In this document: positions 18,646 to 43,263 of the stretch, one piece after another
How positions within the stretch are numbered: the stretch's first letter is position 1
Layout: each line of letters starts with the position of its first letter
NCBI RefSeq assembly: GCF_900141995.1
Contig: NZ_FQZA01000001.1
Coordinates: forward strand, 410,392 to 474,391
Direction of reading: 5' to 3'
Source: Palleronia salina
Lineage (GTDB): Bacteria > Pseudomonadota > Alphaproteobacteria > Rhodobacterales > Rhodobacteraceae
Length of the DNA: 64,000 bases
Position numbers and translations under genes: made by a program
The notes under the pieces: generated by a model
Told to the model about the DNA's origin: nothing
The model's input: only the letters and a program-made list of their open reading frames with translations
The model's database searches: none

Positions 18646-18674
18646 TGTATCCAAGGGATCGGCCCGTGTGTCAA
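18646..18674 (-). promoter_or_regulatory. candidate rplU-rpmA promoter
   Basis: On the minus strand a perfect TTGACA (18674-18669) is followed 17 bases later by GATACA (18651-18646). It lies in the only gap upstream of rplU, right after the end of the DUF2059 gene and about 147 bases before the L21 start. The -10 is weak (three of six), as is common in alphaproteobacteria. Confidence 0.45.
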
Positions 18675-18686
18675 GCGCCGCGGCGC

Positions 18687-19514
18687 TCAAATATCCTGCG
18701 CCTGCATGAATTGCGCGGCCGCGCGGCCCAGGTCGGTCGAGATGTCGACGAAGACCCGGTCGAACGCCCCGAACAGCGCCGAATTCAGCGCCTGGCCGGT
18801 GTCGGTTTCCGAAAGCGAGATGTAGGCGTCGAGATCCGCGTCGCTCAGCGGCTCGTAGGCCAGCGTGAGAAAGCCATAGAGCCACTGCTCGGTATCGCCG
18901 CGGATCTCGGGCTCCTGCGCCCAGACATCCGCGATCATCTGCGACTCGCCCATGGCCTCGGGGAAGGCATCGCCGTCATCCAGCCCGCGGTAGAAGGCGA
19001 AGTTCGAATTCAGCGCCCCCGCCACGTTCATCTCCAGCAGATCGTTCGCCTCGATCAGCGTCTCGATCATGGCGATGCGCGGTGCCTCTTCGGCGCGCAT
19101 CCGCGCCGCGCGTTCCTCGGCCGCGTCCTCGACCGTCTCGTCCCGCAGCGCCTGGCGTGCCGCGACTTCCAGGTCGGTGATCGTGCGCCCCAGGTCCGAG
19201 GTGAAGAACGTGACCAGCCGCGCGGTATCGGCATCCGAAAGGCCCCGCTCCAGCCCCGAGACCAGCTGGCTCTCCATCCGCTCGGTGTCGTAAATCCCTT
19301 CGACCACGCGGCGCCACGCGGCACCGCCCTGGCCGGGAAACATCTCGTCTTCCAGGTCGGCGCCGTATTCCACGCCTTCGTCCTGCATCACCGCGATGAT
19401 GTCGCCCAGGCGCATGGCGTCGAACAGGGCCTGTGCCCCTTCCTCGTCCTGCGCGAGCGCCGGGATCGGGGCGGCACATAGTGTCATCAGCGGCAGCGCG
19501 AGGCGGAGAGTCAT
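18687..19514 (-). CDS. DUF2059 domain periplasmic protein
   Basis: A 275-residue exported protein with a Sec signal peptide (MTLRLALPLMTL, cleavage near ALAQD, residue 22). The mature protein is acidic and helical and resembles the DUF2059 family (FDAMRLGDIIAVM at the front, LVTFFTSDLGRTITDLE in the middle, FLTLAYEPLSDADLDAYI near the end, typical of the family's C-terminal helix). No catalytic residues are evident and the function is unknown. It is a single gene between rplU and the tRNA. Confidence 0.78.
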   Translation of the reverse strand: MTLRLALPLMTLCAAPIPALAQDEEGAQALFDAMRLGDIIAVMQDEGVEYGADLEDEMFPGQGGAAWRRVVEGIYDTERMESQLVSGLERGLSDADTARLVTFFTSDLGRTITDLEVAARQALRDETVEDAAEERAARMRAEEAPRIAMIETLIEANDLLEMNVAGALNSNFAFYRGLDDGDAFPEAMGESQMIADVWAQEPEIRGDTEQWLYGFLTLAYEPLSDADLDAYISLSETDTGQALNSALFGAFDRVFVDISTDLGRAAAQFMQAQDI

Positions 19515-19620
19515 GGCAAGGTCCAGTCGAGGAAGAGGAACGGCGGGGCTCTCAAGAAGATATGCGCCCCGCCCCGCCCCGCAAGGTCAAACCGATTTCG
19601 CAACGCCCCGCGAAAACCGC

Positions 19621-19649
19621 TTGCACCCCGTGCGCTGCCGTCCTAAACG
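19621..19649 (+). promoter_or_regulatory. candidate tRNA-Ser promoter
   Basis: TTGCAC (19621-19626) and TAAACG (19644-19649) are 17 bases apart, and the -10 lies 16 bases before the tRNA 5' end. Placement is what a stable-RNA promoter needs; the match is moderate. Confidence 0.45.
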
Positions 19650-19665
19650 CCGCGCAGACCCCCGC

Positions 19666-19755
19666 GGAGAGGTGCCGGAGTGGTCGAACGGGGCGGTCTC
19701 GAAAACCGTTGACCCTTCACGGGGTCCCAGGGTTCGAATCCCTGTCTCTCCGCCA
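19666..19755 (+). tRNA. tRNA-Ser (CGA anticodon)
   Basis: 90 bases with a 7-bp acceptor stem (GGAGAGG with TCTCTCC, one G-U pair), a class II long variable arm (TTGACCCTTCACGGGGTC), anticodon loop CTCGAAA giving CGA, T-arm GGGTTCGAATCCC, discriminator G and an encoded CCA. It reads UCG codons. Serine tRNA genes are common integration sites, and an altered gene remnant follows immediately. Confidence 0.96.
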
Positions 19756-19785
19756 TTTACACGCTGATAATGTCGCTTTTCGTGG

Positions 19786-20003
19786 CTACGAGCCGAAAAG
19801 CTGCCAAGTCTCCGGACGAAGCGCGGTCACCGCAGCGATAGCGCTCGGCACGGTGCGAACTAGTCCGATGAGAGGCCCAAGCGCGGTGGCCTTTTCGAAG
19901 ATCGTCGGCAAGCTGCCAGTGTCCCGTCGAGGCTCATCGAGACGGCAGGAACCAAGGCCCCGACCGCCGCGACAAGCACGCCAAGCCCTTGCAGACCGCG
20001 TTC
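19786..20003 (-). pseudogene. frameshifted gene remnant beside tRNA-Ser
   Basis: On the minus strand two protein-like stretches lie in adjacent frames. The first, from 20003, includes GLQGLGVLVAAVGALVPAV, a probable membrane segment. The second continues one frame over with LPTIFEKATALGPLIGLV and SAIAAVTALRPETWQLFGS before a TAG at 19786. Together they look like the C-terminal end of a membrane protein broken near 19920. I do not recognise the family; a phage or mobile-element accessory protein is possible given the tRNA next door. There is no start codon or ribosome site, so this is a relic, not a gene. Confidence 0.4.
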
Positions 20004-20004
20004 C

Positions 20005-21405
20005 TCACGTGACCCGCAGCCAGGTCGTCATGCCCGACGCCGCGTGGCTCAGCATGTGGCAATGGAACAGCCAGTCGCCGGGATTGTCGGCCGTGAACGC
20101 GATCTCGCGCGTTTCCTGCCCGCCCACCAGGAGGGTATCGCGCAACGGCCCCAGCGCGCCGTCGGCGGTGACTTCGCGGAAATGCATGCCGTGCAGGTGC
20201 ATCGCGTGCGGGAACACCGTCTCGTTCACGATCTCCAGGCGCACCGGCTCGCCCAGGCCCAGCTCGGCCAGCGGGGTATCGGTCATGGCGGCCATGTCGT
20301 TGAGCGCCCAGAACCGGCCCTCGGCGATCAGCTCGCGAAAGCCCATGCGCGTGCCGTTCAGAACGGCCGATTGCATCCGGCCCATGGCACCGCCCGCCAT
20401 GACGAGGCGCAGCGGGGTCGCGGCGGACAGGTCGGGCAAGCCGGTATTCGGGTTGGGCGGCAGGGGCGCGGGCGTGCCGCGCCGGGTCTGCGCCGCCGTG
20501 CCGGCGACGTCGAACGCCGCCAGGAAGTAGTCACCGTCCTCCTCCACCTGGGCCAGGCCCGCCTGCCCGCCCGCATCCGCAACGACATCGACGATCAGGT
20601 CGGCCCGTTGCGCGGGCCCCAGGACCAGCACGTCCCCGATCGGCTCGGGCGCGTCCAGCGGCATGCCGTCCAGCGCCACGACCCAGCCCGCCAGCCCCGG
20701 AAGGGTCAGCGGGAAGATCCGCGCGTTCGAGGCGTTGATCAGCCGCAGGCGAAGCCGCTCGTGCCGGCGCGCGGGCAGCGTCAGGTCCGAGCGGCCATTG
20801 ACGGTGATATAGTTCCCGATCCGTCCGCCGTGGCTCATCATCATCGGGTGGTCGAAACTGTCGTCGATCTGCCCGGTTTCCGGGTTCAGCAGCCAGTCGC
20901 CCAACACCATGACCTCTTCGCGGTCCACGTCGGGCGGGGTGGCTTCCTCGACGATCAACGCGCCGTGCAGGCCCCGGGCGACCTGCTCCCACGACCGGTT
21001 ATGCGCGTGATACCAGTAGGTGCCCGCATCGGGCGCCTCGAAATCGTAGTCGAAGCGCATACCCGGCGCGACCGGCTCCTGCGTCAGGCCCGAGACACCG
21101 TCCATGCCGTTGGCGATGCGGATGCCGTGCCAGTGGATCGAGCTGCCCTGCGGCAGGTCGTTGACGAAACGGCGGGCGACCCGTTCCCCCTGCCGCACCC
21201 GGATCTCGGGGCCGGGCGCGGTCGGGCCATAGCCCCAGATCTCGGTCATCGGATAGTCGTCGGGCAACAGCCGGAACGGGGTCACCCGCGCCCGGAGTTC
21301 CTCGATCCCCGCATCGGTCGCGGCCGCAAGCCCGCCGCCCGGCAAGGCCGATCCAAGTCCCGCGGCCGTGGCCATGCGCAGGACATCGCGTCTGCCAAAC
21401 ATCAT
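20005..21405 (-). CDS. multicopper oxidase (periplasmic, CueO/CopA-like)
   Basis: A 466-residue three-domain multicopper oxidase, probably oxidising Cu(I) in the periplasm. It has a Tat-type leader (FGRRDVLRMATAAG). The copper ligands are all visible: HWHG (near residue 102), YHAHNRSWE (near 144), HAMHLHGMHF (near 405) and HCHMLSHAASGM (near 450), covering the trinuclear cluster and type 1 site. The second ATG-rich start MMFGRR at 21405 is chosen; the upstream frame lacks signal character. Last gene of the left copper operon, 56 bases after the diheme cytochrome. Confidence 0.92.
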   Translation of the reverse strand: MMFGRRDVLRMATAAGLGSALPGGGLAAATDAGIEELRARVTPFRLLPDDYPMTEIWGYGPTAPGPEIRVRQGERVARRFVNDLPQGSSIHWHGIRIANGMDGVSGLTQEPVAPGMRFDYDFEAPDAGTYWYHAHNRSWEQVARGLHGALIVEEATPPDVDREEVMVLGDWLLNPETGQIDDSFDHPMMMSHGGRIGNYITVNGRSDLTLPARRHERLRLRLINASNARIFPLTLPGLAGWVVALDGMPLDAPEPIGDVLVLGPAQRADLIVDVVADAGGQAGLAQVEEDGDYFLAAFDVAGTAAQTRRGTPAPLPPNPNTGLPDLSAATPLRLVMAGGAMGRMQSAVLNGTRMGFRELIAEGRFWALNDMAAMTDTPLAELGLGEPVRLEIVNETVFPHAMHLHGMHFREVTADGALGPLRDTLLVGGQETREIAFTADNPGDWLFHCHMLSHAASGMTTWLRVT

Positions 21406-21461
21406 CTTGTCGCTCCATCTGCTACGCGGGGCGCCTCGTGTGCGTGCATCCCGCGGTCTGA

Positions 21462-22415
21462 TCATTCGGGTTGGCCGGTGGCGCTGGCGGCGACCGGGCC
21501 GCGTTGGGCCAGGCGCTCGCGCCCGCCGTCCTCGCCTTCCAGCAGGTAGGTCGCCATGGCGTCGCGGTCGGCGTCGGACAGGAACCGCGTCCCCTCGCGC
21601 ACGACCTCGGCCATGCTGCCGCCGAAGGCGTCGCCCGACGGCGTGAGGCCGGATTTCAGCGCGTAGGACAGCGACGACACCGTCCAGCCGCCCTCGGCCA
21701 GCGCGCCGGGCCGGATCGACGGCGCCTTGCCCTCGCCGGGAAGCGCGGGATTGCCCGCGAAGACCGCCCCCAGGTCACGCCCCCCCGCCAGGTTGCGCGG
21801 GGTGTGGCAGGCCCCGCAATGGGCGGCGCCGCGCACCAGTTCGCGCCCGCGGTTCCACGCCTCGCTGCGCCCCGGCACCGGGTCGGTCTTCGGGTCGTAG
21901 AAGAAGGCCGCGCGCCACAGCTTCAGCCCCCAGCGCTGATCGAAGGGGAAGCCGACATCGTGGTCGGGCGCCGACTCGGCCACCGGAGCGACGGTCTGGA
22001 ACGCGGCCCACAGGTCGGCCATCTGCTGGTCCGAGAACTCGGCGTAGAACGGATAGGGGAAGGACGGGTAATAGGGGTCGCCATCCGGGGCCACGCCCTG
22101 CCGGACGGCCTTGGCAAAGGATTCGGCCGTCCAGTCGCCGATCCCGTGATCGGGCTCGGTGGTCAGGTTCGGCGGATAGAAGGTGCCGAAATCGGTTTGC
22201 AGGGGCGCCCCGCCCGCAAGGGGGGCACCGCCTTCGTCGAAATTCGAATGGCATACGATGCACCCGCTCGCGCGCGCGAGGTAGGCGCCCCGCTGGGCGT
22301 TGCCCTGAAGCCCGATGGGTCCGGGCGCGCTGCCCACGGGCCAGGCGATCACGGCGCTCAGCGCGGCGGCAGCGAATGCCGCCGCGCCCGCCGTCCACAA
22401 GACGATCCTGCGCAT
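21462..22415 (-). CDS. diheme cytochrome c, membrane-anchored
   Basis: A 317-residue protein with an N-terminal membrane anchor (residues about 5-27) and two heme-binding CXXCH sites: CIVCH (near 55) and CGACH (near 200). Each is followed by a cytochrome c fold with candidate distal Met residues. The layout resembles the cytochrome subunits of alcohol or aldehyde dehydrogenases, but no dehydrogenase is nearby. Its place before a multicopper oxidase suggests it receives or gives electrons in copper oxidation. It starts two bases after the cytochrome c' gene ends. Confidence 0.88.
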   Translation of the reverse strand: MRRIVLWTAGAAAFAAAALSAVIAWPVGSAPGPIGLQGNAQRGAYLARASGCIVCHSNFDEGGAPLAGGAPLQTDFGTFYPPNLTTEPDHGIGDWTAESFAKAVRQGVAPDGDPYYPSFPYPFYAEFSDQQMADLWAAFQTVAPVAESAPDHDVGFPFDQRWGLKLWRAAFFYDPKTDPVPGRSEAWNRGRELVRGAAHCGACHTPRNLAGGRDLGAVFAGNPALPGEGKAPSIRPGALAEGGWTVSSLSYALKSGLTPSGDAFGGSMAEVVREGTRFLSDADRDAMATYLLEGEDGGRERLAQRGPVAASATGQPE

Positions 22416-22417
22416 GC

Positions 22418-23032
22418 TCAGCCGTCTTCCGCCCGGAACCGCGAATGGCAGGCCGAGCAGACCTCGGTGGTCATGGTGAAGGCCGCGTCGGTCGGCATTT
22501 CGGCGATGTGCTCGGCGGTCATCATCCCGGATCCGCCCTCGCCCATCATCGCGCTGCCGCCCATCATGCCCGACGCGTCGCCCATCATGGACCCGCCGCC
22601 CATCATCGACCCAGCGTCGCCGCCCATCATCGCGCCGGTATCCATCTGGCCGCCCTGCCCCATGCCGTTTCCGGCGGCGCCTTCCAGCCCCTCGGCATAG
22701 ACGGCCAGCCGGTCGGCAAGCTCCGCGAACGCGTCCCAGTCCTCCCAGACGGCGTCCTTCGCCTCGGACGGCATCCCGCCCGAGCCTTCGGGGAACAGCT
22801 CGGTCATGGCGTCGCCCGCGTGTTCCTGGAACGTGCGGGCGGCCGCGCGCATGGCGTCGGCGTCGTAGTCCATCTCGCCGCGCATCATCGGCGCGACGGA
22901 TTTCACGGCGTCGCCCATGGCCTTCATCGCGTCCATACGCTCTTTCACGATGCCGGTCGCGCCGCTATGGGCCAGCGCGGCCACGGCAGTTCCGGTCATG
23001 GCAATCGCTGCCAGGGTGGTGGTGATCTTCAT
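22418..23032 (-). CDS. cytochrome c' with methionine-rich insert
   Basis: A 204-residue exported cytochrome of the c' four-helix family. It has a signal peptide (MKITTTLAAIAM, cleavage near AHSG) and a single C-terminal heme site CSACHSRFR (residues 192-200), the usual place in cytochrome c'. Helix segments such as RMDAMKAMGDAVKSVAPMM and TFQEHAGDAMTELFPEGSG fit. Between residues 124 and 171 lies an insert of MMGG-type repeats with 14 Met in 48 residues, a classic soft-metal (Cu(I)) ligand pattern. Ordinary cytochrome c' is about 125-150 residues, so the insert explains the extra length. Confidence 0.87.
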   Translation of the reverse strand: MKITTTLAAIAMTGTAVAALAHSGATGIVKERMDAMKAMGDAVKSVAPMMRGEMDYDADAMRAAARTFQEHAGDAMTELFPEGSGGMPSEAKDAVWEDWDAFAELADRLAVYAEGLEGAAGNGMGQGGQMDTGAMMGGDAGSMMGGGSMMGDASGMMGGSAMMGEGGSGMMTAEHIAEMPTDAAFTMTTEVCSACHSRFRAEDG

Positions 23033-23075
23033 TGTCTCTCGTCTCCGCAAGGTCTGATTTCGGTGTGGTCCAAGA

Positions 23076-23420
23076 TCAGGCCCGGAGGCGCGGTGGCGGA
23101 AGGTCCAGCCCGGGCGATATGCCGTCATAGGCGTGGCAGGTGGAAAGGTAATCGGCGGCGGTCACCGCTTCCGGCGGATGCACATCGACCCGCAGGCTGA
23201 CGACCACGGGGCTGAAGCAGTCGAAGCCCGGGTGGCAATGGTCGATGCGGTCGTCGTGGGTATGGTCGCCCGCATGGGCGTCGGCCGAGGGCGCGACGTG
23301 GGCCACGACGGTTCGGTCGTCACCATGCCCGATCCCGGCCTTTGCCTCGGCCGCGAACAGCAGCAAGGCGCCAAGAACGAACGCGTTCAACAGGACTACC
23401 GCATACCGCGCTATCATCAC
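23076..23420 (-). CDS. small His/Cys-containing secreted or membrane-anchored protein
   Basis: A 114-residue protein with an N-terminal hydrophobic segment (residues about 5-27) and a metal-ligand-rich centre: GDHTHDDRIDHCHPGFDCF. It ends in Pro/Arg (LPPPRLRA), a tail common in small metal-resistance accessory proteins. No named family is certain. The ATG at 23420 shares four bases with the stop of the upstream cytochrome gene. Context and ligands suggest periplasmic copper binding (inference). Confidence 0.7.
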   Translation of the reverse strand: MMIARYAVVLLNAFVLGALLLFAAEAKAGIGHGDDRTVVAHVAPSADAHAGDHTHDDRIDHCHPGFDCFSPVVVSLRVDVHPPEAVTAADYLSTCHAYDGISPGLDLPPPRLRA

Positions 23421-23875
23421 TCGATCCCGTTGGCCCGTTGCAGTTCCCGAACGTAAGCTGTCACCATCTTGACGTCACCCTGCGTGACCCCGTCAACGGG
23501 CGGCATGTTGCCGAAGCGCCAGTGATGCGCCCGCACCCCATTCCGGGCCGCGATCACGAAGGCCATGTCGGAATGGTGGCCGGGCTCGTAGATCTGGTGG
23601 ACCAGCGGCGGGGCGACACCGTTCTGTCCCGCAGCGTTCTGGCCGTGGCACGCGGCGCACTTGGCCTCGAAGATGGATTTCCCCAGCGCGGCGTTGCCCG
23701 ACAGCGCCTCGGGCAGGCGCACCTCGACGATCGGCGCGCCCTCGGCCAGGGCGGCCGTATCAGGCGGGGCCATCGAATGGCCCGCCCCCTGCGGCCCGGC
23801 GGCGAACATCTGCCAGCCGACGGCACCGATCCCGGCGATCAGCACGCCCGCCACCACAATGGTCAACTTGTCCAT
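23417..23875 (-). CDS. monoheme cytochrome c
   Basis: A 152-residue membrane-anchored c-type cytochrome: one N-terminal helix (residues about 4-24), the heme site CAACH near 74, a PPLVHQIYEPGHHSD segment and a probable distal Met in FGNMPPV. It belongs to the class I fold and probably acts in the periplasm. First gene of the left copper operon, about 100 bases downstream of the predicted start of transcription. A putative electron carrier for the copper oxidase system. Confidence 0.87.
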   Translation of the reverse strand: MDKLTIVVAGVLIAGIGAVGWQMFAAGPQGAGHSMAPPDTAALAEGAPIVEVRLPEALSGNAALGKSIFEAKCAACHGQNAAGQNGVAPPLVHQIYEPGHHSDMAFVIAARNGVRAHHWRFGNMPPVDGVTQGDVKMVTAYVRELQRANGIE

Positions 23876-23967
23876 GCGTCGTCCTTCGTCTCATCGCGGG
23901 ATCATCGGCGGATGCCGCAACGGGCACCCGCTACCCCACATCATTTGTCATCCCTCCGCAGGCCCAT

Positions 23968-23996
23968 TTGACCGTTGCGGCATCATATCATATTCC
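23968..23996 (+). promoter_or_regulatory. weak candidate promoter for the right copper operon
   Basis: TTGACC (23968-23973) and TATTCC (23991-23996) are 17 bases apart and end about 31 bases before the EF-hand gene. The -10 is poor. It overlaps the opposite-strand promoter, so a regulator bound here could control both arms. Confidence 0.3.
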
Positions 23997-24012
23997 AAAA
24001 TAGGGATGTCAA
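23982..24012 (-). promoter_or_regulatory. promoter of the left copper operon, MerR/CueR-type 19-bp spacing
   Basis: On the minus strand a perfect TTGACA (24012-24007) and TATGAT (23987-23982, five of six) are separated by 19 bases, not 17. An imperfect dyad ACATCCC-N6-GGAATAT lies across the spacer. Long spacers with a dyad are the hallmark of MerR-family promoters such as those of CueR. No merR-type gene is in the window, so the regulator is inferred. Confidence 0.5.
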
Positions 24013-24027
24013 ACCGGCGTCGCGGGC

Positions 24028-24285
24028 ATGAGCGCCGAAAGTCTGCGGGAACGGCTCGGCGAATTCGACGTGAACGACGACGGCGCGCTGAGCCTGGATG
24101 AATTCGCGCAATGGCACGCCACGATGATGCGCGAGCGCATGGTCGACCGGTTCCAGCATCTCGACGCAGACGCCGACGGCTCGGTGACCCCGGACGAGGT
24201 GGACAGCTTCGCCGGGCGCGCGGGCTGGATGCTGGGAGGCATGCGGGGCGGCAGCCCGATCGGAGGCACGCCCGATCAGAACTGA
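24028..24285 (+). CDS. EF-hand calcium-binding protein
   Basis: An 85-residue protein with two canonical EF-hand loops: DVNDDGALSLDEF (residues about 14-26) and DADADGSVTPDEV (about 46-58), each with Asp/Asn at positions 1, 3 and 5 and Glu at 12. A Gly/Met-rich tail follows. No signal peptide is present in this frame; related copper-cluster proteins usually carry one, so the N-terminus may be clipped. First gene of the rightward run. Partner and role unknown. Confidence 0.75.
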   Translation: MSAESLRERLGEFDVNDDGALSLDEFAQWHATMMRERMVDRFQHLDADADGSVTPDEVDSFAGRAGWMLGGMRGGSPIGGTPDQN

Positions 24286-24357
24286 TCCGGCGACGGCGCG
24301 TTGCAGGGTGGACCGGCCCGCGCGGCCGGGCCAGATCGAAACAGGGGGACATCCCAG

Positions 24358-24462
24358 ATGCGCCAGCATTCTCATCCCGGCTCAGACACGCCGACATCCC
24401 CTCGGGCGCACGGAAAGACCGATCGTGGCCCGCTGGATCGGGCGGAAAGGGCCCGGGCATGA
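24358..24462 (+). CDS. possible 34-residue ORF, unknown
   Basis: An ATG at 24358 preceded by a purine-rich GGGGGA opens a 34-codon frame (MRQHSHPGSDTPTSPRAHGK) whose TGA overlaps the next gene's ATG as ATGA. That overlap style matches the operon. It is hydrophilic and Arg/His-rich, with no similarity I recognise. It could be a leader peptide for the channel-like gene or chance. Confidence 0.3.
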   Translation: MRQHSHPGSDTPTSPRAHGKTDRGPLDRAERARA

Positions 24463-24893
24463 CCCTCGCCGCGCTGCTCATCGGAACCTGCCTTGTCGCG
24501 GCCATGGGGCATGTGCACCACCACGCGCTGACCACGCTGGGGCGGCTGGCGCCGAACCCGCAAGCCGGCTCGTCGCGCGCGGTGCACGTCACCTTCCTTG
24601 GCCTTCTGCTGCTTCACCTGGCCGAGATCCTGGTCTTCGCGCTGGTGAACCGGTGGCTCCTGCGCTGGGAGGCCCTGGGGGGCACCACGTCCGGTCCGCT
24701 CGACTGGGCCGACGTGATCTACCTGACCGGCGTGAACTTCACCACGCTGGGGCTTGCCCGCATCAACCTGACGGGCGACATCCGGATCGTCACCATGCTT
24801 CAGTCGCTCGGGGGTCTCATGCTGCTGACATGGTCGGCCACCTACCTGTTCAGCGTCTGCCGCCAAAGCTGGCGCGAGGCCGAGCAGGAATGA
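24459..24893 (+). CDS. two-helix ion-channel-like membrane protein
   Basis: A 144-residue inner-membrane protein with three or four hydrophobic segments. Between the last two is a pore-loop-like TGVNFTTLGLARINL, resembling the filter region of K+-channel-type (Ion_trans_2) proteins, although the exact TVGYG is absent. It may be a small channel or a channel-derived protein. It follows the EF-hand gene and overlaps the next gene by four bases. Function in metal stress is not known. Confidence 0.68.
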   Translation: MTLAALLIGTCLVAAMGHVHHHALTTLGRLAPNPQAGSSRAVHVTFLGLLLLHLAEILVFALVNRWLLRWEALGGTTSGPLDWADVIYLTGVNFTTLGLARINLTGDIRIVTMLQSLGGLMLLTWSATYLFSVCRQSWREAEQE

Positions 24894-25591
24894 CGCAGGC
24901 CGCCGCAGGGCTGACGGCGCGCCGCTTCGCCGCGGGCGTGGGCGCCCTGCTGCTCGCCGGGCTGCTGCTGGCATGGCTGATGGATTGGCTGCCCACCGGC
25001 ATCGACAGGACCACCATCACCCGCTGGGTGGACGCGGCCGGGCCCTGGGGGCCGGTCGCGGTGATCGGCCTGATGACGGCCGCGGTGGTGGCCAGCCCGA
25101 TCCCCAGCGCGCCGATCGCCCTGGCGGCGGGCGCTGCCTACGGCCATTACGCGGGCGCGGTCTATGTCGCCATCGGCGCCGAGATCGGGGCCATCACGGC
25201 CTTCCTGATCGCCCGGTTCGTGGGGCGCCGGACGGTCGAGCGCATCCTGGGCGACAAGGCCGATTACGGTCTGCTGGGCTCGCAGAACGCGCTGACGCTG
25301 ACGGTCTTCGCCAGCCGCCTGCTGCCCTTCGTGTCCTTCGACGCCATGAGCTACGCGGCCGGGCTCAGCCGCCTGCATTTCTGGCGGTTCGCGCTGGCCA
25401 CGCTGGCCGGTATCCTGCCGGCAAGCTTCGTGCTGGCGCATTTCGGAAGCGTCGCCATGGACGGGGATGCCGGGGCGGCCGAATGGCTCGCCATCGGGCT
25501 CGGCCTGCTGACCGCCCTGCCGCTGGTCGTCCTCGCCCTGCGCCGCAGGACGGATCGGCGGGAAGGGGTCGGGCCGGAAGATCCCGAATGA
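24890..25591 (+). CDS. TVP38/TMEM64 (DedA-like VTT) membrane protein
   Basis: A 233-residue multi-pass membrane protein with the VTT domain pattern: VASPIPSAPIALAAGAAYGH (residues about 66-85), GAITAFLIARFVGRR (re-entrant helix region), SRLLPFVSFDAMSYAAGLSR and FWRFALATLAGILPASF. Such proteins occur in mercury/copper operons and in DedA-related lipid-scramblase families. ATG at 24890 overlaps the channel-like gene's stop. The C-terminal tail is charged. Confidence 0.86.
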   Translation: MTQAAAGLTARRFAAGVGALLLAGLLLAWLMDWLPTGIDRTTITRWVDAAGPWGPVAVIGLMTAAVVASPIPSAPIALAAGAAYGHYAGAVYVAIGAEIGAITAFLIARFVGRRTVERILGDKADYGLLGSQNALTLTVFASRLLPFVSFDAMSYAAGLSRLHFWRFALATLAGILPASFVLAHFGSVAMDGDAGAAEWLAIGLGLLTALPLVVLALRRRTDRREGVGPEDPE

Positions 25592-25721: not shown

Positions 25722-26099
25722 ATGACCTTGGTTCGCGCCTTCCTGACCCGATTGACCTTTGTCCTGGCCTTGCTGGTCCTGGGCATCGAGCCCGTGCTGG
25801 CGCGGGCAAGCGCGGTTGACTGCATGGCGCCAACCGTGGCCGTCGATACCCTGGCGGACGCGGCGCATACGGCCCATCACGCGGGGATGCACGGCGCCGA
25901 CACCGCGCTGCCGGACGCCGACACGCAGCAGACCGTCTCGGGCATGTGCTGCATCGGGACCTGCGGGTTCGCCACTGAGATCCTGCCGTCCATCGACACC
26001 GCCGCGTCGCGGCTGACCGTGGCCAAGCATGATCCCATGGTCGCCGCAGGCGCGAACCTTACCGACCCGATCGGTCTGAGAAGGCCTCCGAAGGGCTGA
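25722..26099 (+). CDS. small secreted Cys/His protein
   Basis: A 125-residue protein with a hydrophobic N-terminal leader (residues about 8-26, cleavage near LARASA). The mature part has a His/Met patch (AHTAHHAGMHGAD) and a Cys cluster MCCIGTCGF near residue 76, then a Pro/Arg/Lys end (LRRPPKG), much like the small protein in the left operon. These are soft-metal ligands, so periplasmic copper binding is plausible. Family not recognised. It lies 130 bases after the TVP38 gene, a gap without clear signals. Confidence 0.7.
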   Translation: MTLVRAFLTRLTFVLALLVLGIEPVLARASAVDCMAPTVAVDTLADAAHTAHHAGMHGADTALPDADTQQTVSGMCCIGTCGFATEILPSIDTAASRLTVAKHDPMVAAGANLTDPIGLRRPPKG

Positions 26100-26152
26100 G
26101 TGCGTCCAGCCGGCCCCCCGGCGCGAACGTTACTCAGACCCAGAGGCAATTC

Positions 26153-26368
26153 ATGACTTTCCGACTCGCGGCCACCGTGCCGCTTCTTCTGGCCGGCTGC
26201 GCGCCGCTGCCGGACCTTCCGCAAAGCGCGGCCTTCATCGCACCGGCCGACACGCGCGCCACGGGAACCGCCCAGACCGAACCGGTCCTGTCCTACCAGC
26301 CACGGCGGGTCGAGGCGCCCGGCGACTGGCGGCGGCTGAACGACCGCCAGGCCCCGGGGGGCGGATCA
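26153..26368 (+). CDS. small lipoprotein preceding the TolC-like factor
   Basis: The frame from ATG 26153 encodes a lipoprotein: MTFRLAATVPLLLAGCAPLP with a lipobox LAGC at residues 13-16, then about 55 residues ending WRRLNDRQAPGGG. Similar small lipoproteins lie before TolC-like genes in copper clusters. The natural stop appears to be lost: the triplet at 26366-26368 is TCA where TGA would end the protein and give ATGA with the next start. As written the frame runs on to 26479 in an out-of-frame Arg/Pro-rich tail. Coordinates show the inferred original end. Confidence 0.6.
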
Positions 26369-27740
26369 CGAGGCTGCTTTCCGCCACCGCGCTCGCCCTG
26401 CCCGCCCTGCTCGCCGCCTGCGCGGACACCGCGCTGGTCGGCGCCGGCTCGGACCCGCGGCCGGGCTTTGCGCTTCTGAGTTCGAAATCGCGCGAGGCGA
26501 CGGGCGCCAGCCCCACCTGGACGCAGAACAGCGCCGAGCTGGCCGCGAACGAGGCACGGGCCAAGGCGCTGGTCGCGGGCAAGACCATCGGGCCCGATAC
26601 CGCCGTGCAGGTCGCGCTGATGAACAACCGCGGCTTGCAGGCGGCCTTCGCCGATCTCGGCTTCGCCGCCGCCGATGTCTGGGAAACCGGGCTTGGCCCC
26701 AACCCGGCGCTCGGCCTCGGGATCAGCGGGATCGGCGAGGTCGGCATCGCCGACACCTTCGAGGCCGTCAACGTCGGCTCGCTCCTGGATCTCGCCACGC
26801 GCAAGCAACGCGGCGCGCTGGCGATGATCGATTTCCAGATCGCCAAGCTCGAGGTCCTGGCGGCGACGCTTGCGCTCGCGTGGGAGACGCGGCTGGCCTG
26901 GATCGACGCGGTCGCGGCCTTCGAGGCCGCCGCCCTCGTCGGGCGCGCGCAGGGCACGGCCGACGCCGCGTCGGAACTGGCGGCCGAGCTGGGCCGCACC
27001 GGCGCCCTGAGCGTATCGGACCAGGCGCGCGAATACGCCTTCACCGCCGCGCTGGGCGCGGAACGCGCCGGGGCGCGGCTCGAGGCGCGGCTGGCCAAGG
27101 AAAAGCTGGCGCGGCTCATGGGGCTCAGCGGTCCCGAAGTCACCTTCTACGTGCCCGACCGGCTGCCCGCCCCGCCCGGCCGCCGTCCGGGCCGCGCCAA
27201 CGTGGAACGCATGGCGCTGGAGCACCGCGTGGACATCGCGGCCGGTCGCCTCGCGCTGGACCGCGTGGCCCGGGAATACCGGCTCGACGGACAGACGCGC
27301 ATGATCTCGGACATCGCGCTGGCCGCGAGACCGAGACCACCCCGGTGCTCGAGATCGGGTTCGAGATCCCGCTTTATGACACCGCCGCGTTGAAGGGCCG
27401 GCGGGGACAGATGGCCTATCTTCACGCCGCCAACGCGCTGGCGCAGACGGCGATCCACGCGCGGGCCGAGGCGCGCGCGGCCCATGCCGCCGTGGAAGGC
27501 CGCTACGACATCGCGCGGCACTGGCGCGACCAGGTGCTGCCGCTGCGCCGCACCATCGATGAGGAGGCGCTCAAAAGCTACAACGGCATGCTCACCTCGA
27601 CCTTCGAGCTCATCGCGGACGCGCGCGAAGCCCTCGAGGCCGAGCTGGGCGCGGCCGAAGCCAAGGCGGATTACTGGCGCGCCGAGGTTGCCGTTTCGGC
27701 GGCGATCTGGGGCGGCGCCGCGGAAGGAGACACCGAATGA
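26365..27740 (+). pseudogene. TolC-family outer-membrane efflux protein, broken
   Basis: A TolC/OEP-like gene from a lipoprotein-type leader (RLLSATALALPALLAAC) through two OEP repeats (AVQVALMNNRGLQAAFADLG, GFEIPLYDTAALKG, LKSYNGMLTSTFELI). Two lesions are visible. The expected ATG at 26365 reads ATC. Near 27319-27332 the reading frame shifts by one base (from frame ending ALAARP to frame continuing RETETTPVLEIGF), so the C-terminal 135 residues are in another frame. Without these, about 457 residues, normal for the family. It would have carried metal or other compounds across the outer membrane with the MCO genes. Confidence 0.7.
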
Positions 27741-29107
27741 TCAACCGCAGACAGATGCTCACCGCCGGGGCCGGCGCCGTCCTGGCCTCGGCCGCCACCG
27801 CCCAGACCCGGTTCCGCGACCTGCCGGAACTGGCCGTGGTGAACGACGCGGCGACGCAGGTGCCGCCGCGCCCGGGACAGGGCCCCGACTACAACCCCGT
27901 GGTCAGGCTGAACGGCTGGTCGCTGCCCTGGCGGGTGAACGGCAACGTGAAGGAATTCCACCTCGTGGCCGAGCCGGTGGAACGGGTCATGGCCAGCGGC
28001 ATGATCGCGCGGCTGTGGGGCTATAACGGCCAGTCCACCGGCCCGACGATCGAAGCGGTCGAGGGCGAAAGGGTGCGCATCTACGTCACCAACCGCCTGC
28101 CCGAACACACGTCGGTGCACTGGCACGGGCTGATCCTGCCATCGGGCATGGACGGGGTGGGCGGGCTGTCTCACCCCGCCATCCCGCCGGGCAAGACCTT
28201 CGTCTACGAGTTCGACCTGACGAAATCCGGCACCTTCATGTATCACCCCCACGCCGACGAGATGGTGCAGATGGCCATGGGGATGATGGGCCTGTTCATC
28301 GTGCATCCGCGCGACCCGGACTTCATGCCGGTCGACCGTGACTTCGCCTTCCTGCTGGCGGCCTACGACATCGACCCGGGCACCTACATCCCGCGCGTGG
28401 CCGAGATGACGAACTTCAACATGTGGACCTGGAACAGCCGGATCTTTCCGGACATCGACCCGCTGGTGGTGGCCAGGGGCGACCAGGTGCGCGTGCGCTG
28501 CGGCAACCTGACGATGACCAACCACCCGATCCACATGCACGGCTACGATTTCGAGGTCACCTGCACCGATGGCGGCTGGGTGCCGGAAACGGCGCGCTGG
28601 CCCGAGGTCAGCATCGACATTCCCGTGGGCGCCATGCGTGCCTACGAATTCGACGCCGTGCACGAGGGCGACTGGGCGATCCACTGCCACAGGTCGCACC
28701 ACACGATGAACGCCATGGGCCACGACCTGCCGACCTTCATCGGGGCCGACAAGTCGCGGCTGACGCGGATGATCCGCCGCCAGACCCCAGGCTACATGCC
28801 CATGGGCACGGCGGGCAGGGCCGACATGGCCGAGATGTCGATGGAGATCCCCGACAACACGATCCCGATGATGACCGGCTGGGGCCCGCACGGCCCGCTC
28901 GAGATGGGCGGCATGTTCTCGGTCGTGAAGGTGCGCGACGGCATTGCGCCCGGCGACGACACCGATCCCGGCTGGTATCAGAACCCGCCCGGCACCGAAG
29001 CCTGGAAATGGACCGGCGGACTGCCGGACCACGCCCGCCAGAGCTCCCCCGAAACCATCGTCACGCCGCCGGCCCATGGCGGGGACGGCGGACATGGCAA
29101 CGGATGA
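27737..29107 (+). CDS. multicopper oxidase, CopA-like
   Basis: A 456-residue multicopper oxidase with a Tat-like leader (MINRRQMLTAGAGAVLAS). Ligand motifs are HWHGLILPSGMDG (near residue 131), YHPHADE (near 170), HPIHMHGYDF (near 259) and HCHRSHHTMNAMGH (near 316), the last being a less usual form of the type 1/3 motif. A Met/Gly-rich C-terminal section (MAEMSMEIPDNTIPMMTGW) adds likely Cu(I) ligands. ATGA overlap with the TolC-like gene couples them. Distinct from the left-arm oxidase in length and motif spacing. Confidence 0.92.
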   Translation: MINRRQMLTAGAGAVLASAATAQTRFRDLPELAVVNDAATQVPPRPGQGPDYNPVVRLNGWSLPWRVNGNVKEFHLVAEPVERVMASGMIARLWGYNGQSTGPTIEAVEGERVRIYVTNRLPEHTSVHWHGLILPSGMDGVGGLSHPAIPPGKTFVYEFDLTKSGTFMYHPHADEMVQMAMGMMGLFIVHPRDPDFMPVDRDFAFLLAAYDIDPGTYIPRVAEMTNFNMWTWNSRIFPDIDPLVVARGDQVRVRCGNLTMTNHPIHMHGYDFEVTCTDGGWVPETARWPEVSIDIPVGAMRAYEFDAVHEGDWAIHCHRSHHTMNAMGHDLPTFIGADKSRLTRMIRRQTPGYMPMGTAGRADMAEMSMEIPDNTIPMMTGWGPHGPLEMGGMFSVVKVRDGIAPGDDTDPGWYQNPPGTEAWKWTGGLPDHARQSSPETIVTPPAHGGDGGHGNG

Positions 29108-29180
29108 GAAGATCCTCTTTGACACGAAGGACACCTGAATAAACGGACCTTTCCTTGCCCTGGCGCTGGTCGCCTCGGCA

Positions 29181-29618
29181 TTGCCCACCGGCCTGATGGC
29201 CGCGGGCACCCATGCCGGCGGACATGGCCACGCGGCCATGGCCATCGGCAGCCCCGCCGAGAGCGAGCCCACGCGCACCATCGAGATCCGAATGGCCGAG
29301 ACCGAGGACGGCCGGATGATTTTCGAGCCCGCAGTGCTGGACGTCTCGGAAGGCGAAACCGTGCGGCTGGCGATCACGAATACCGGCGCGCTTCCCCACG
29401 AATTCGTCATGGATACCCTGCCCAACGTCGAAGAGCACAAGGCCCTGATGGAGCGCTTCCCCGAGATGGAGCACGACGACCCCAACGCCGTGCATCTCGA
29501 ACCGGGTGAAAGCGGCGAGATCCTGTGGACCTTCGCCGAGGCGGGCACCTTCCAGTTCGCCTGCCTCATCCCGGGCCACTACGAGGCCGGCATGCACGGC
29601 CCCCTCATCGTCAACTGA
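29181..29618 (+). CDS. cupredoxin (plastocyanin-like copper protein), damaged leader
   Basis: A cupredoxin domain with type 1 ligands: PHEF (first His), then FACLIPGHYEAGMHGP supplying Cys, His and Met. The mature protein has a His/Met-rich start (GTHAGGHGHAAMA). The only in-frame start (TTG 29181) leaves no proper signal peptide. Upstream, CTGAATAAACGGACC followed by an extra T reads as the normal MNKRTFLALALVAS leader once one T in the TTT at 29150-29152 is dropped and CTG (29135) is taken for ATG. AAGGA precedes it. So the export signal is probably broken by an indel or by sequencing error. Confidence 0.7.
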   Translation: MPTGLMAAGTHAGGHGHAAMAIGSPAESEPTRTIEIRMAETEDGRMIFEPAVLDVSEGETVRLAITNTGALPHEFVMDTLPNVEEHKALMERFPEMEHDDPNAVHLEPGESGEILWTFAEAGTFQFACLIPGHYEAGMHGPLIVN

Positions 29619-29634
29619 ACCAAGGACATCTCGC

Positions 29635-29913
29635 ATGAAACACTTCGTCTTCGCCGCCGCGCTGGCCCTGGCCGCCGCCCCCGCCCTCGCCGACGGGCAT
29701 TTCGCCGACGGCACGATCACCAAGATCGACCCGCAGTGGAACAAGCTGACCATCGACCACGGCCCGCTGGCCAATCTCGACATGCCCGCCATGAGGATGG
29801 TCTTCGAGGTCTCGGAGAGCGTCGCCATCGACGACCTTGCGGAAGGTGACCGGATTTCCTTCGCGGCAGACCGGGTGAACGGCAAGCTCACCGTGGTCGA
29901 GATGGCCAGGTAA
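29635..29913 (+). CDS. CusF-like periplasmic copper-binding protein
   Basis: A 92-residue exported protein: signal peptide MKHFVFAAALALAAAP with cleavage after ALA (near residue 19), then a small beta-barrel like CusF (TITKIDPQWNKLTIDHGPL, NLDMPAMRMVFEVSE). The Cu(I) ligands His in DHGP and two Met in MPAMRM match the CusF HxxMxM-type site; a Trp (QWNK) may give the cation-pi contact. CusF hands Cu(I) to an efflux pump. AAGGA precedes the ATG at 29635. Last gene of the right operon. Confidence 0.85.
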   Translation: MKHFVFAAALALAAAPALADGHFADGTITKIDPQWNKLTIDHGPLANLDMPAMRMVFEVSESVAIDDLAEGDRISFAADRVNGKLTVVEMAR

Positions 29914-41246: not shown

Positions 41247-41918
41247 ATGCGGATACTGATCGTCGAGGATACCGCCGACGTCGCCGAGGCGATCGCGGCG
41301 GCGCTCGGGCGGCGCGGCATGGCCTGCGACCGCGCGTCGACGGCCAGCGACGCGCGTCATTTCCTGTCGGCGGAAAGCTACGACGTGATCGTGCTCGACA
41401 TTCACCTGCCCGATGGAGACGGCCGCCAGATCCTGTCCGAGCTCAGGGTCGGCAAGAACCGCACGCCGGTCCTGATGCTGACGGCCGAGTTCAACGTCTC
41501 GGCCCGGGTCGACGCGCTGGATGCCGGGGCCGACGACTATCTCGTGAAACCATTCGATTTGCGCGAGCTCGAGGCGCGGATCCGCGTTCTAGCGCGGCTT
41601 GGCGCGGGCGCCGCGAGCGCGCGCATCGCCCTGGGGGACCTCGAATTCGACCCCGCCGCCCAGACCGCCCATGTCTCGGGCGCGCCGGTCGCGCTGACGC
41701 GGCGCGAGATCTCGCTGCTGGGCCTGTTCGTCGCCCGCCGCGACCGGATCATCGCGAAAGAGAAGATCCTCGAAAGCCTGTTCTCTATGGACGAGGACGT
41801 GGGGCTCAACACGGTCGAGCTCTACGTCGCGCGGCTGCGAAAGAAGCTCGCCGCATCCAGCGTCGCCATCGTGACCTATCGCGGGCTCGGCTACCAGCTC
41901 ACGGTGCCCGATGGCTGA
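41247..41918 (+). CDS. tctD: response regulator TctD
   Basis: A 223-residue OmpR-family regulator. Its receiver domain has the acidic pocket near the start (VEDT), the phosphorylated Asp in VIVLDIHLPDGDG (near residue 51), Thr/Ala and Lys in LTAEF and DDYLVKPFDLREL. A winged-helix DNA-binding domain follows from about 125 (ALTRREISLLGLFVARRDRI, NTVELYVARLRKKLAAS, YRGLGYQL). The ATG at 41247 has GGAGG immediately upstream. It overlaps the sensor gene by eight bases. Predicted to activate tctCBA. Confidence 0.93.
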   Translation: MRILIVEDTADVAEAIAAALGRRGMACDRASTASDARHFLSAESYDVIVLDIHLPDGDGRQILSELRVGKNRTPVLMLTAEFNVSARVDALDAGADDYLVKPFDLRELEARIRVLARLGAGAASARIALGDLEFDPAAQTAHVSGAPVALTRREISLLGLFVARRDRIIAKEKILESLFSMDEDVGLNTVELYVARLRKKLAASSVAIVTYRGLGYQLTVPDG

Positions 41919-43263
41919 CACCACAGCCGCGATCCGGCCCACGCTTTCGCTCAGGCTGCGCGTCCACGCGGCGGTCGCCACGGTGCTGGCGCTCGGCGGC
42001 GCCGTGGTGCTGGTCGCGACGTTTCTCTACGGGCGCCAGGCGGCGCAGGAGGTCTATGACGGCATCCTCGTCGGCGCCGCCAGCGACATCGCCGAGGCCA
42101 TCTTCATCCGCGACGGTGCGCCCGGCGTCGTGCTGCCGGTTTCCGCCTTCGAGCTGCTGGGCCAGGCCCCCGACGACCGCGTGCGCTACCTGATCTTGGC
42201 GCCCGACGGCACGCCCGTCACCGGCGACGCGCAGACGCCCCGCCCCCGTCGCGGCGGCGCGGGGCCGGTCTTCTACGACGCAGCCTTCGGAACCGAGCCC
42301 GCCGCTATGTCGCGCTGACCCGCCGCTTTGCCGAGCGCAGCTTCTCGGGCCCCGTGCGCGTGATCGTCGGCCAGACCCTGCGCGCGCGGCAGGCGCTGGC
42401 CTGGCGGATCGCGCGCAACGCCCTGCTGGGCCTCACGCTGGCGGGCATCGGGATCTCGGCGCTGGCCTGGATCGCCGTGGCCCGGGCGATGACGCCTCTC
42501 TCGCGTCTCAGCGCCGGGCTGGCCGAACGCGCGCCCACCGATCTTACCCCGGTCTCGGGCGCTTCCCCGCGCGAGATCGCCGCCGTGCAAACCTCGCTCA
42601 ACGCCTTCATGGATCGCCTCAGCCGCCAGGCCGAGGCCAGCGGCAAGCTCATCGCGGACACCGCGCACCAGTTGCGCTCGCCCGTGGCCGCGATTCCGGG
42701 CGCAGTTGCAACTGGCCGCCGATGCGCCCGGGCCCGACGACAGGCGCGCCGCGCTCGACCGGGCCGAGCGGCGGACCGAGGCGCTGAACCGGCTGCTCGA
42801 CCAGATGCTGGCCCACGCCATGGTGAACCACCGCGCCGATGCCGTCCTGCGCGAAACCGTGGATCTGCGCGACGTGGCCATCGAGGGGCTCGAAGCCTGC
42901 GACGACCTGGTCGCGCCGGACGAAGGCCGCGTTCAGCTGCGCCTGCCTGAAGCGCCCGTGCCAATCGAAGGCGACATGCTGTCGCTTACCGAGGCCGGCA
43001 AGAACCTCCTGATCAATGCCCTTCAGCACGGGCGCCCGCCCATCCGCATCGGCGTGTCGCAATCGCCCGCCGCGATCTTCGTCGAGGACAGCGGCCCCGG
43101 CCCGTCCGAGGTCCCCGAGATCCTTGCCACGCGCCACGCGGGCGGACGCCCCTCGGGCGGTCTCGGCCTTGCCATCGCCCATGACGTGGCGCGCGCCCAT
43201 GCGGGCGCGCTGCGTTTTGCCCACCGCCCCGGCGGCTTCCGCGCGTCGCTGGAGTTTCCATGA
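41911..43263 (+). pseudogene. tctE: sensor histidine kinase TctE, two frameshifts
   Basis: The TctE-type sensor is spread over three frames. Part 1 (41911-42300) has the N-terminal helix and periplasmic domain up to FGTEP. Then a one-base loss near 42298-42303 shifts to a second frame: RRYVALTRRFAERSF, a second helix, HAMP, and the H box IADTAHQLRSPVAAI. A one-base gain near 42696-42700 shifts back for QLQLAADAPGPDD to the ATPase domain with NLLINALQHG (N box), FVEDSGPGPS and GGLGLAIAHDVARAH (G box). The two indels cancel; without them about 450 residues, full TctE length. Either the kinase is dead or the reads are wrong. Confidence 0.8.

Follow-up and report, generated by a model that had tools for sequence, protein, structure and literature searches.

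Probable decay of a conserved stop/start junction in a copper-tolerance operon of Palleronia salina

The junction between a small lipoprotein gene and the TolC-like gene that follows it in a copper-tolerance operon of Palleronia salina is very probably a derived, decayed form of a conserved stop/start junction, in an operon that appears to have been losing function recently. The site lies in a stretch of 64,000 nucleotides, referred to below as the window. It was compared with the same junction in related genomes, the closest being that of Palleronia pelagia DSM 26893 (NZ_FOCM01000001.1, locus L060), whose operon is 94% identical to that of the window over 1.7 kb. A single change in a compact four-base junction of this kind can disable two genes together, and the responsible base is better read from relatives than from the window alone. 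Gene names given below without a stated basis are putative.

The junction in the window and in related loci

Four features describe the junction in the window:
26153..26479, plus strand: small lipoprotein gene, 108 codons here and 72 in P. pelagia (equivalent to 26153-26368)
26365..26368, plus strand: ATCA, the site named by the first-pass annotation; its ATC is identical in P. pelagia and stands directly 5' of the TolC start there
26368..26371, plus strand: ACGA, the true site of the overlap that was lost; P. pelagia has ATGA, with T at the base that is C here (26369)
26368..27740, plus strand: gene for a TolC-like outer-membrane efflux protein (OEP, PF02321), broken, with no start codon and a 40-bp deletion

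Read directly, positions 26363-26373 are GGATCACGAGG, and the tetramer ATCA at 26365-26368 contains neither a stop nor a usual start codon. The lipoprotein frame, opened by the ATG at 26153, runs without a stop to 26479 (108 aa). In the TolC-like frame the first ATG, GTG or TTG is the GTG at 26605. As judged by eye, the frame from 26365 leads into a signal peptide that carries LLAAC, which resembles a lipobox. The first-pass annotation, made from the window, had correctly observed that ATGA in place of ATCA would suit both genes; the hypothetical stop at 26366 would then end the lipoprotein after 71 residues. However, within 60 nt on either side two in-frame tetramers are one change away from an NTGA overlap, namely ATCA at 26365 and ACGA at 26368 (about 8.2% of the window's tetramers differ from NTGA by a single base). 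Since the two are equally close, the window alone is unable to discriminate between the sites, and it is the relatives that pick the second one, at 26368.

In the junction alignment, P. pelagia has GGATC-ATGAG and the window has GGATC-ACGAG, base 26367 being C in both. In P. pelagia the lipoprotein gene (72 aa, L060:2549-2767) and the TolC-like gene (start L060:2764) share bases, the TGA of the former overlapping the ATG of the latter. The proposal that a single change removed both a stop and a start codon is thus borne out, as a one-base difference accounts for both, but the base concerned is 26369 and not 26367, where a G to C change had been suspected. The overlap belongs at 26368-26371, three bases further on than had been proposed, and the lipoprotein ends after 72 residues rather than 71. 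At the first position of the TolC-like protein, 9 of the 10 outgroups aligned there have M and none has T.

The junction was surveyed in 37 loci, comprising 35 related loci (P. pelagia included) and two plasmids; start codons were picked automatically, and some of these choices, for example in L043 and L049, are possibly off. In 24 of the 37 loci the stop codon begins at the second base of the start codon (23 ATGA and one GTGA), so that a four-base stop/start overlap, the design assumed in the first-pass annotation, is borne out for many relatives. In 7/37 the stop begins two bases before the start (TGATG or TAATG, the one-base overlap type), three have another spacing, and in the remaining three the upstream small ORF was undetected. 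A lipoprotein ORF upstream of TolC was accordingly detected in 34/37 loci; that of L056 is in a doubtful frame, the chosen ORF having a frame unlike the lipoprotein although a weak lipoprotein match exists in the locus. The lipoproteins of the nearest relatives share the motif DWRxLNDxQAPG, and searches against Pfam and NCBIfam gave no match for the lipoprotein.

These comparisons make it highly improbable that the ancestral overlap occupied 26365-26368 and was lost by G to C at 26367, leaving a 71-residue lipoprotein. Such an overlap would supply an in-frame stop and start, but P. pelagia has C at that position and carries its ATGA three bases on. Moreover, C stands immediately 5' of the start codon in 18 of the 37 loci, including seven of the eight loci L036-L041, L051 and L068, and nine of the 37 combine the +1 overlap with a lipoprotein of 72 residues.

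Overlapping stop and start codons permit termination-reinitiation, according to the accessible text of Huber et al. 2019 (PMC6728339). The junctions of the relatives resemble the start/stop-overlapping pairs described there, since genes of the same orientation overlap in them as ATGA or TGATG; the window differs in that the overlap is lost, ACGA providing neither a stop nor an ATG. In P. pelagia, with its ATGA, and in most of the related loci, the lipoprotein and TolC-like genes share bases at their border, and by analogy with those published gene pairs a ribosome finishing the lipoprotein could restart on the TolC-like gene. In the window, C instead of T at 26369 removes the stop, carrying the lipoprotein frame 36 codons further, and turns the TolC start into ACG.

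Further lesions in the TolC-like gene and the copper cluster

The TolC-like frame from 26368 stops at 27393; what remains of the gene is in a different frame. The break coincides with a stretch of 40 bp that in P. pelagia stands between two 7-bp copies of GGCCGCG and is absent, out of frame, from the window:
27321..27327, plus strand: GGCCGCG, the one repeat copy still present where the 40 bp are missing; P. pelagia has two

In 17 relatives (59-71% protein identity) the TolC protein is 462-472 aa long. The length of the deleted stretch is variable among them: seven show no gap relative to P. pelagia, 10 are shorter by 3-7 residues, and none is shorter by 13. Because 40 is not a multiple of three and no relative is 13 residues shorter, the 40 bp were most likely lost in the lineage of the window, and replication slippage between the 7-bp repeats is the most likely route. 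The PF02321 (OEP) profile scores 35.8 bits with the P. pelagia protein and 23 bits with the 3' part of the window's gene alone (cut-off 22), and the window contains no single open frame with a start codon for its OEP gene. On this reading of the frames the TolC-like gene is taken to be a pseudogene; given the second lesion, a corrected junction base alone would leave it broken.

Rare initiation at codons such as ACG exists, and the ACG at 26368 is correctly placed and in frame. Continued use of the TolC-like gene through weak initiation at this ACG, with a shortened product, is nevertheless very unlikely, since the deletion closes the frame at 27393 and most of the OEP region lies behind the frameshift: in the intact P. 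pelagia protein the OEP match covers residues 279-458 of 470, and the frame is broken at about residue 320. A further OEP gene of the same genome is located at 510577-511749 of the contig that holds the window (C24), with a weak match on C7. Among 14 genomes of the genus, five, counting that of the window, gave a match to the TolC-like protein.

The remaining members of the copper cluster, together with the gene remnant just upstream of the operon, are as follows:
24025..24285, plus strand: EF-hand protein gene, C-terminal remnant, its N-terminal part gone at a deletion junction
27737..29107, plus strand: multicopper oxidase gene, frame intact; joined to the TolC frame by a stop/start overlap (ATGA at 27737)
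29139..29618, plus strand: cupredoxin-family gene, start ATA versus ATG in P. pelagia
29635..29913, plus strand: gene for a CusF-like copper-binding protein, frame intact; family match obtained with the P. pelagia protein

The cupredoxin, assigned to its family by a profile match to 29181-29618, has ATA at 29139-29141 with an in-frame TGA directly upstream; the P. pelagia counterparts are ATG and CGA. The front of the EF-hand gene is missing where the window lacks two segments of the compared P. pelagia piece (18658-22390 and 22488-25061); these segments carry Scs/DsbD-like, two-component and EF-hand genes, named by eye from their translations. It is possible that the first segment (18658-22390) was gained in P. 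pelagia rather than lost in the window. Between the two missing segments, an island of 99 nt (23927-24025, 85% identity) is the sole remainder. NCBIfam matches of the EF-hand remnant were disregarded as below the cut-off (best 29.8 bits against 120).

Besides the changed junction base, then, the TolC-like gene has most likely lost 40 bp between 7-bp repeats and is taken to be a pseudogene, the cupredoxin gene of the operon is without its start, and the EF-hand gene just upstream is without its front. The copper-tolerance operon thus appears to be recently losing function in this lineage, and ordinary gene decay is most likely the phenomenon observed.

The alternative that C at 26369 is a sequencing or assembly error, with the junction intact in the organism, was judged unlikely. 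The genome is a draft (3.57 Mb) of 30 contigs, single-base indels at about 42302 and 42694 in another gene might themselves be errors, and the dN/dS of TolC is ordinary; against this, the same gene carries a repeat-flanked deletion of 40 bp, and lesions of different kinds are present in or beside the operon. The other gene (41911-43263), histidine-kinase-like by eye and adjoining a response regulator, contains three internal stops, the first of the two indels being a one-base loss and the second a one-base gain relative to P. pelagia. Its indels were set aside as evidence of decay, as they are outside the operon and may be sequencing errors.

The background frequency of damaged genes was estimated by searching 204 ORFs from 260 kb of P. 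pelagia in 264 kb of the window's contig, which gave 138 with a match and 66 without. Sixteen of the 138 matched genes were flagged as not intact, and three of these belong to the six-gene copper cluster (3/6 in the cluster versus 13/132 elsewhere, Fisher p 0.021). In a strict variant counting only n42, n97 and n189 as broken elsewhere, a set chosen after the list had been seen, Fisher p was 0.0009. Several of the 16 flagged genes are divergent rather than broken, n104 lies at the end of the searched piece, and two have an early stop (at residue 53 in a frame of 432 and at residue 7 in one of 402) that perhaps reflects start calling. Two candidates, g35 and g52, were rejected as lesions, as they look like spurious or over-extended ORFs; the ORFs at those places are still among the 16.

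Measures of selection were compared with the pooled pN/pS of 28 neighbouring genes (0.164). The dN/dS of TolC is 0.225 (Fisher p 0.24), that of the lipoprotein 0.40 (p 0.26), that of the cupredoxin 0.53 (p 0.062) and that of the multicopper oxidase 0.13 (p 1.0). As none of the four is significantly raised, long-standing decay is unsupported, and dN/dS was rejected as proof of relaxed selection in TolC. Raised values were found for the EF-hand remnant (0.56, p 7e-5) and the CutF-like gene described below (0.30, p 0.019).

Amino-acid changes in TolC, the oxidase, the cupredoxin and the CusF-like protein were polarised with outgroup loci (33, 36, 20 and 4, respectively). Nineteen changes fall on the side of the window, two of them being the lost start codons themselves, one falls on that of P. 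pelagia, and 22 are ambiguous. In four control genes the corresponding numbers are 18, 8 and 22, and the difference between 19:1 and 18:8 is marginal (Fisher p 0.057). Five of the oxidase changes affect positions that are invariant in the outgroups (36/36 or 33/33). The asymmetry between lineages and the selection figures would fit a recent relaxation of the cluster without proving it, and are only suggestive.

The CutF-like leader and the predicted stem-loop

Two features stand at the head of the operon, before the lipoprotein gene:
25722..26099, plus strand: gene for a CutF-like small protein, 125 aa, with CIGTC (CxxxC) and the end GLRRPPKG (C-terminal RPP)
26080..26152, plus strand: predicted stem-loop, in which the CutF-like Pro-Pro codons and stop pair with the region 5' of the lipoprotein start

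In the cutFOG operon of Rhodobacter capsulatus, as described in the accessible text of PMC9973294, CutF is a small CxxxC protein with a C-terminal PP, encoded upstream of copper genes, and a short intergenic stem-loop covers the next Shine-Dalgarno site. The product of 25722-26099 has the properties by which CutF-like proteins are recognised in the same text: a length below 170 aa, CxxxC, a PP motif, no match in Pfam, and a multicopper oxidase gene nearby. Its N-terminus was read by eye as that of a secreted protein. By these published rules the leader of the window is likened to CutF, as a small CxxxC and PP protein encoded before copper genes; a loop over the next Shine-Dalgarno site is a tentative point of resemblance.

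Under a rule that accepts any fitting ORF in the upstream stretch, and hence favours a find, 33 of 34 related loci have upstream an ORF of 70 aa or more with PP within six residues of its stop; among all plus-strand ORFs of this size in these loci, 52/493 have such an end, and these should include most of the 33. CxxxC is present in 21 of the 33 PP-ending upstream ORFs and absent from 12, P. pelagia included. The P. pelagia copy reads CIGTF, without the second Cys of the motif.

In the fold predicted for the RNA between the last leader codons and the lipoprotein start (z -3.77 in the window), GCCUC from the Arg-Pro-Pro codons lies against the Shine-Dalgarno-like GAGGC at 26143-26147. Participation of the Pro-Pro codons in the arm predicted to pair with the Shine-Dalgarno site may set the present case apart from cutFOG as presented in the accessible text. 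Folding of eight loci gave z < -3 in three, -1.4 and -2.0 in two, and values near zero or above in three (4/8 above -1.5). Single folds of somewhat longer pieces show the Pro-Pro codons paired to the sequence just 5' of the lipoprotein start in 12/19 loci and lack this pairing in seven, P. pelagia among them.

Pairing across loci was examined with an alignment whose 19 rows are the window plus 18 loci taken from the 34 in which a lipoprotein ORF was detected. RNAalifold on this 19-row MAFFT alignment found no consensus stem (3 pairs); gap placement varies between the rows, and a comparison of cognate with swapped arms was used instead. Cognate arms pair at -18.6 kcal/mol and swapped arms at -13.6 kcal/mol over the 19 loci, the observed mean being reached in 0 of 20000 permutations, in a test that was designed after the single folds had been seen and whose related rows are not independent. 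The cognate arm is better than the row mean in 17/19 loci. When four near-duplicates are left out, the 15 remaining loci give -18.35 kcal/mol for their own arms and -13.36 kcal/mol for crossed ones, and 13/15 beat the row mean. On fold results that point both ways, a switch in which the predicted stem-loop would shield the Shine-Dalgarno site of the lipoprotein is taken as likely.

A wider scheme is offered tentatively, at somewhat less than even odds: a two-stage translational relay, in which a CutF-like copper sensor gates the small lipoprotein and the overlaps then convey the signal to the products of the TolC-like and oxidase genes. The conserved C-terminal Pro-Pro codons would act as an anti-Shine-Dalgarno arm, and the window would represent a natural break at the second stage. 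If true, the leader-loop arrangement would extend the published CutF mechanism. With a CutF-like leader, a predicted stem-loop and a conserved lipoprotein as the first target, copper-dependent translational control becomes directly testable in a rhodobacteral cluster; the leader and lipoprotein genes are those that merit further work.

The genes behind the loop also allow a comparison with known clusters. Their order here is small lipoprotein, TolC-like protein and multicopper oxidase, set against cutFOG as given in the accessible text of PMC9973294, which names OEP genes as the most frequent neighbours of CutF-like genes. The order TolC, copper oxidase, cupredoxin and copper-binding protein is the same in the Rhodobacterales clusters of two annotated plasmids, Mameliella alba pKUB112 and Paracoccus yeei pYEE3. 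TolC and the copper oxidase are annotated in both; the small lipoprotein is not among the genes listed for them, in a gene table that is incomplete, and its ORF is present in both clusters. Unlike in the window, the TolC frames of these plasmids are intact.
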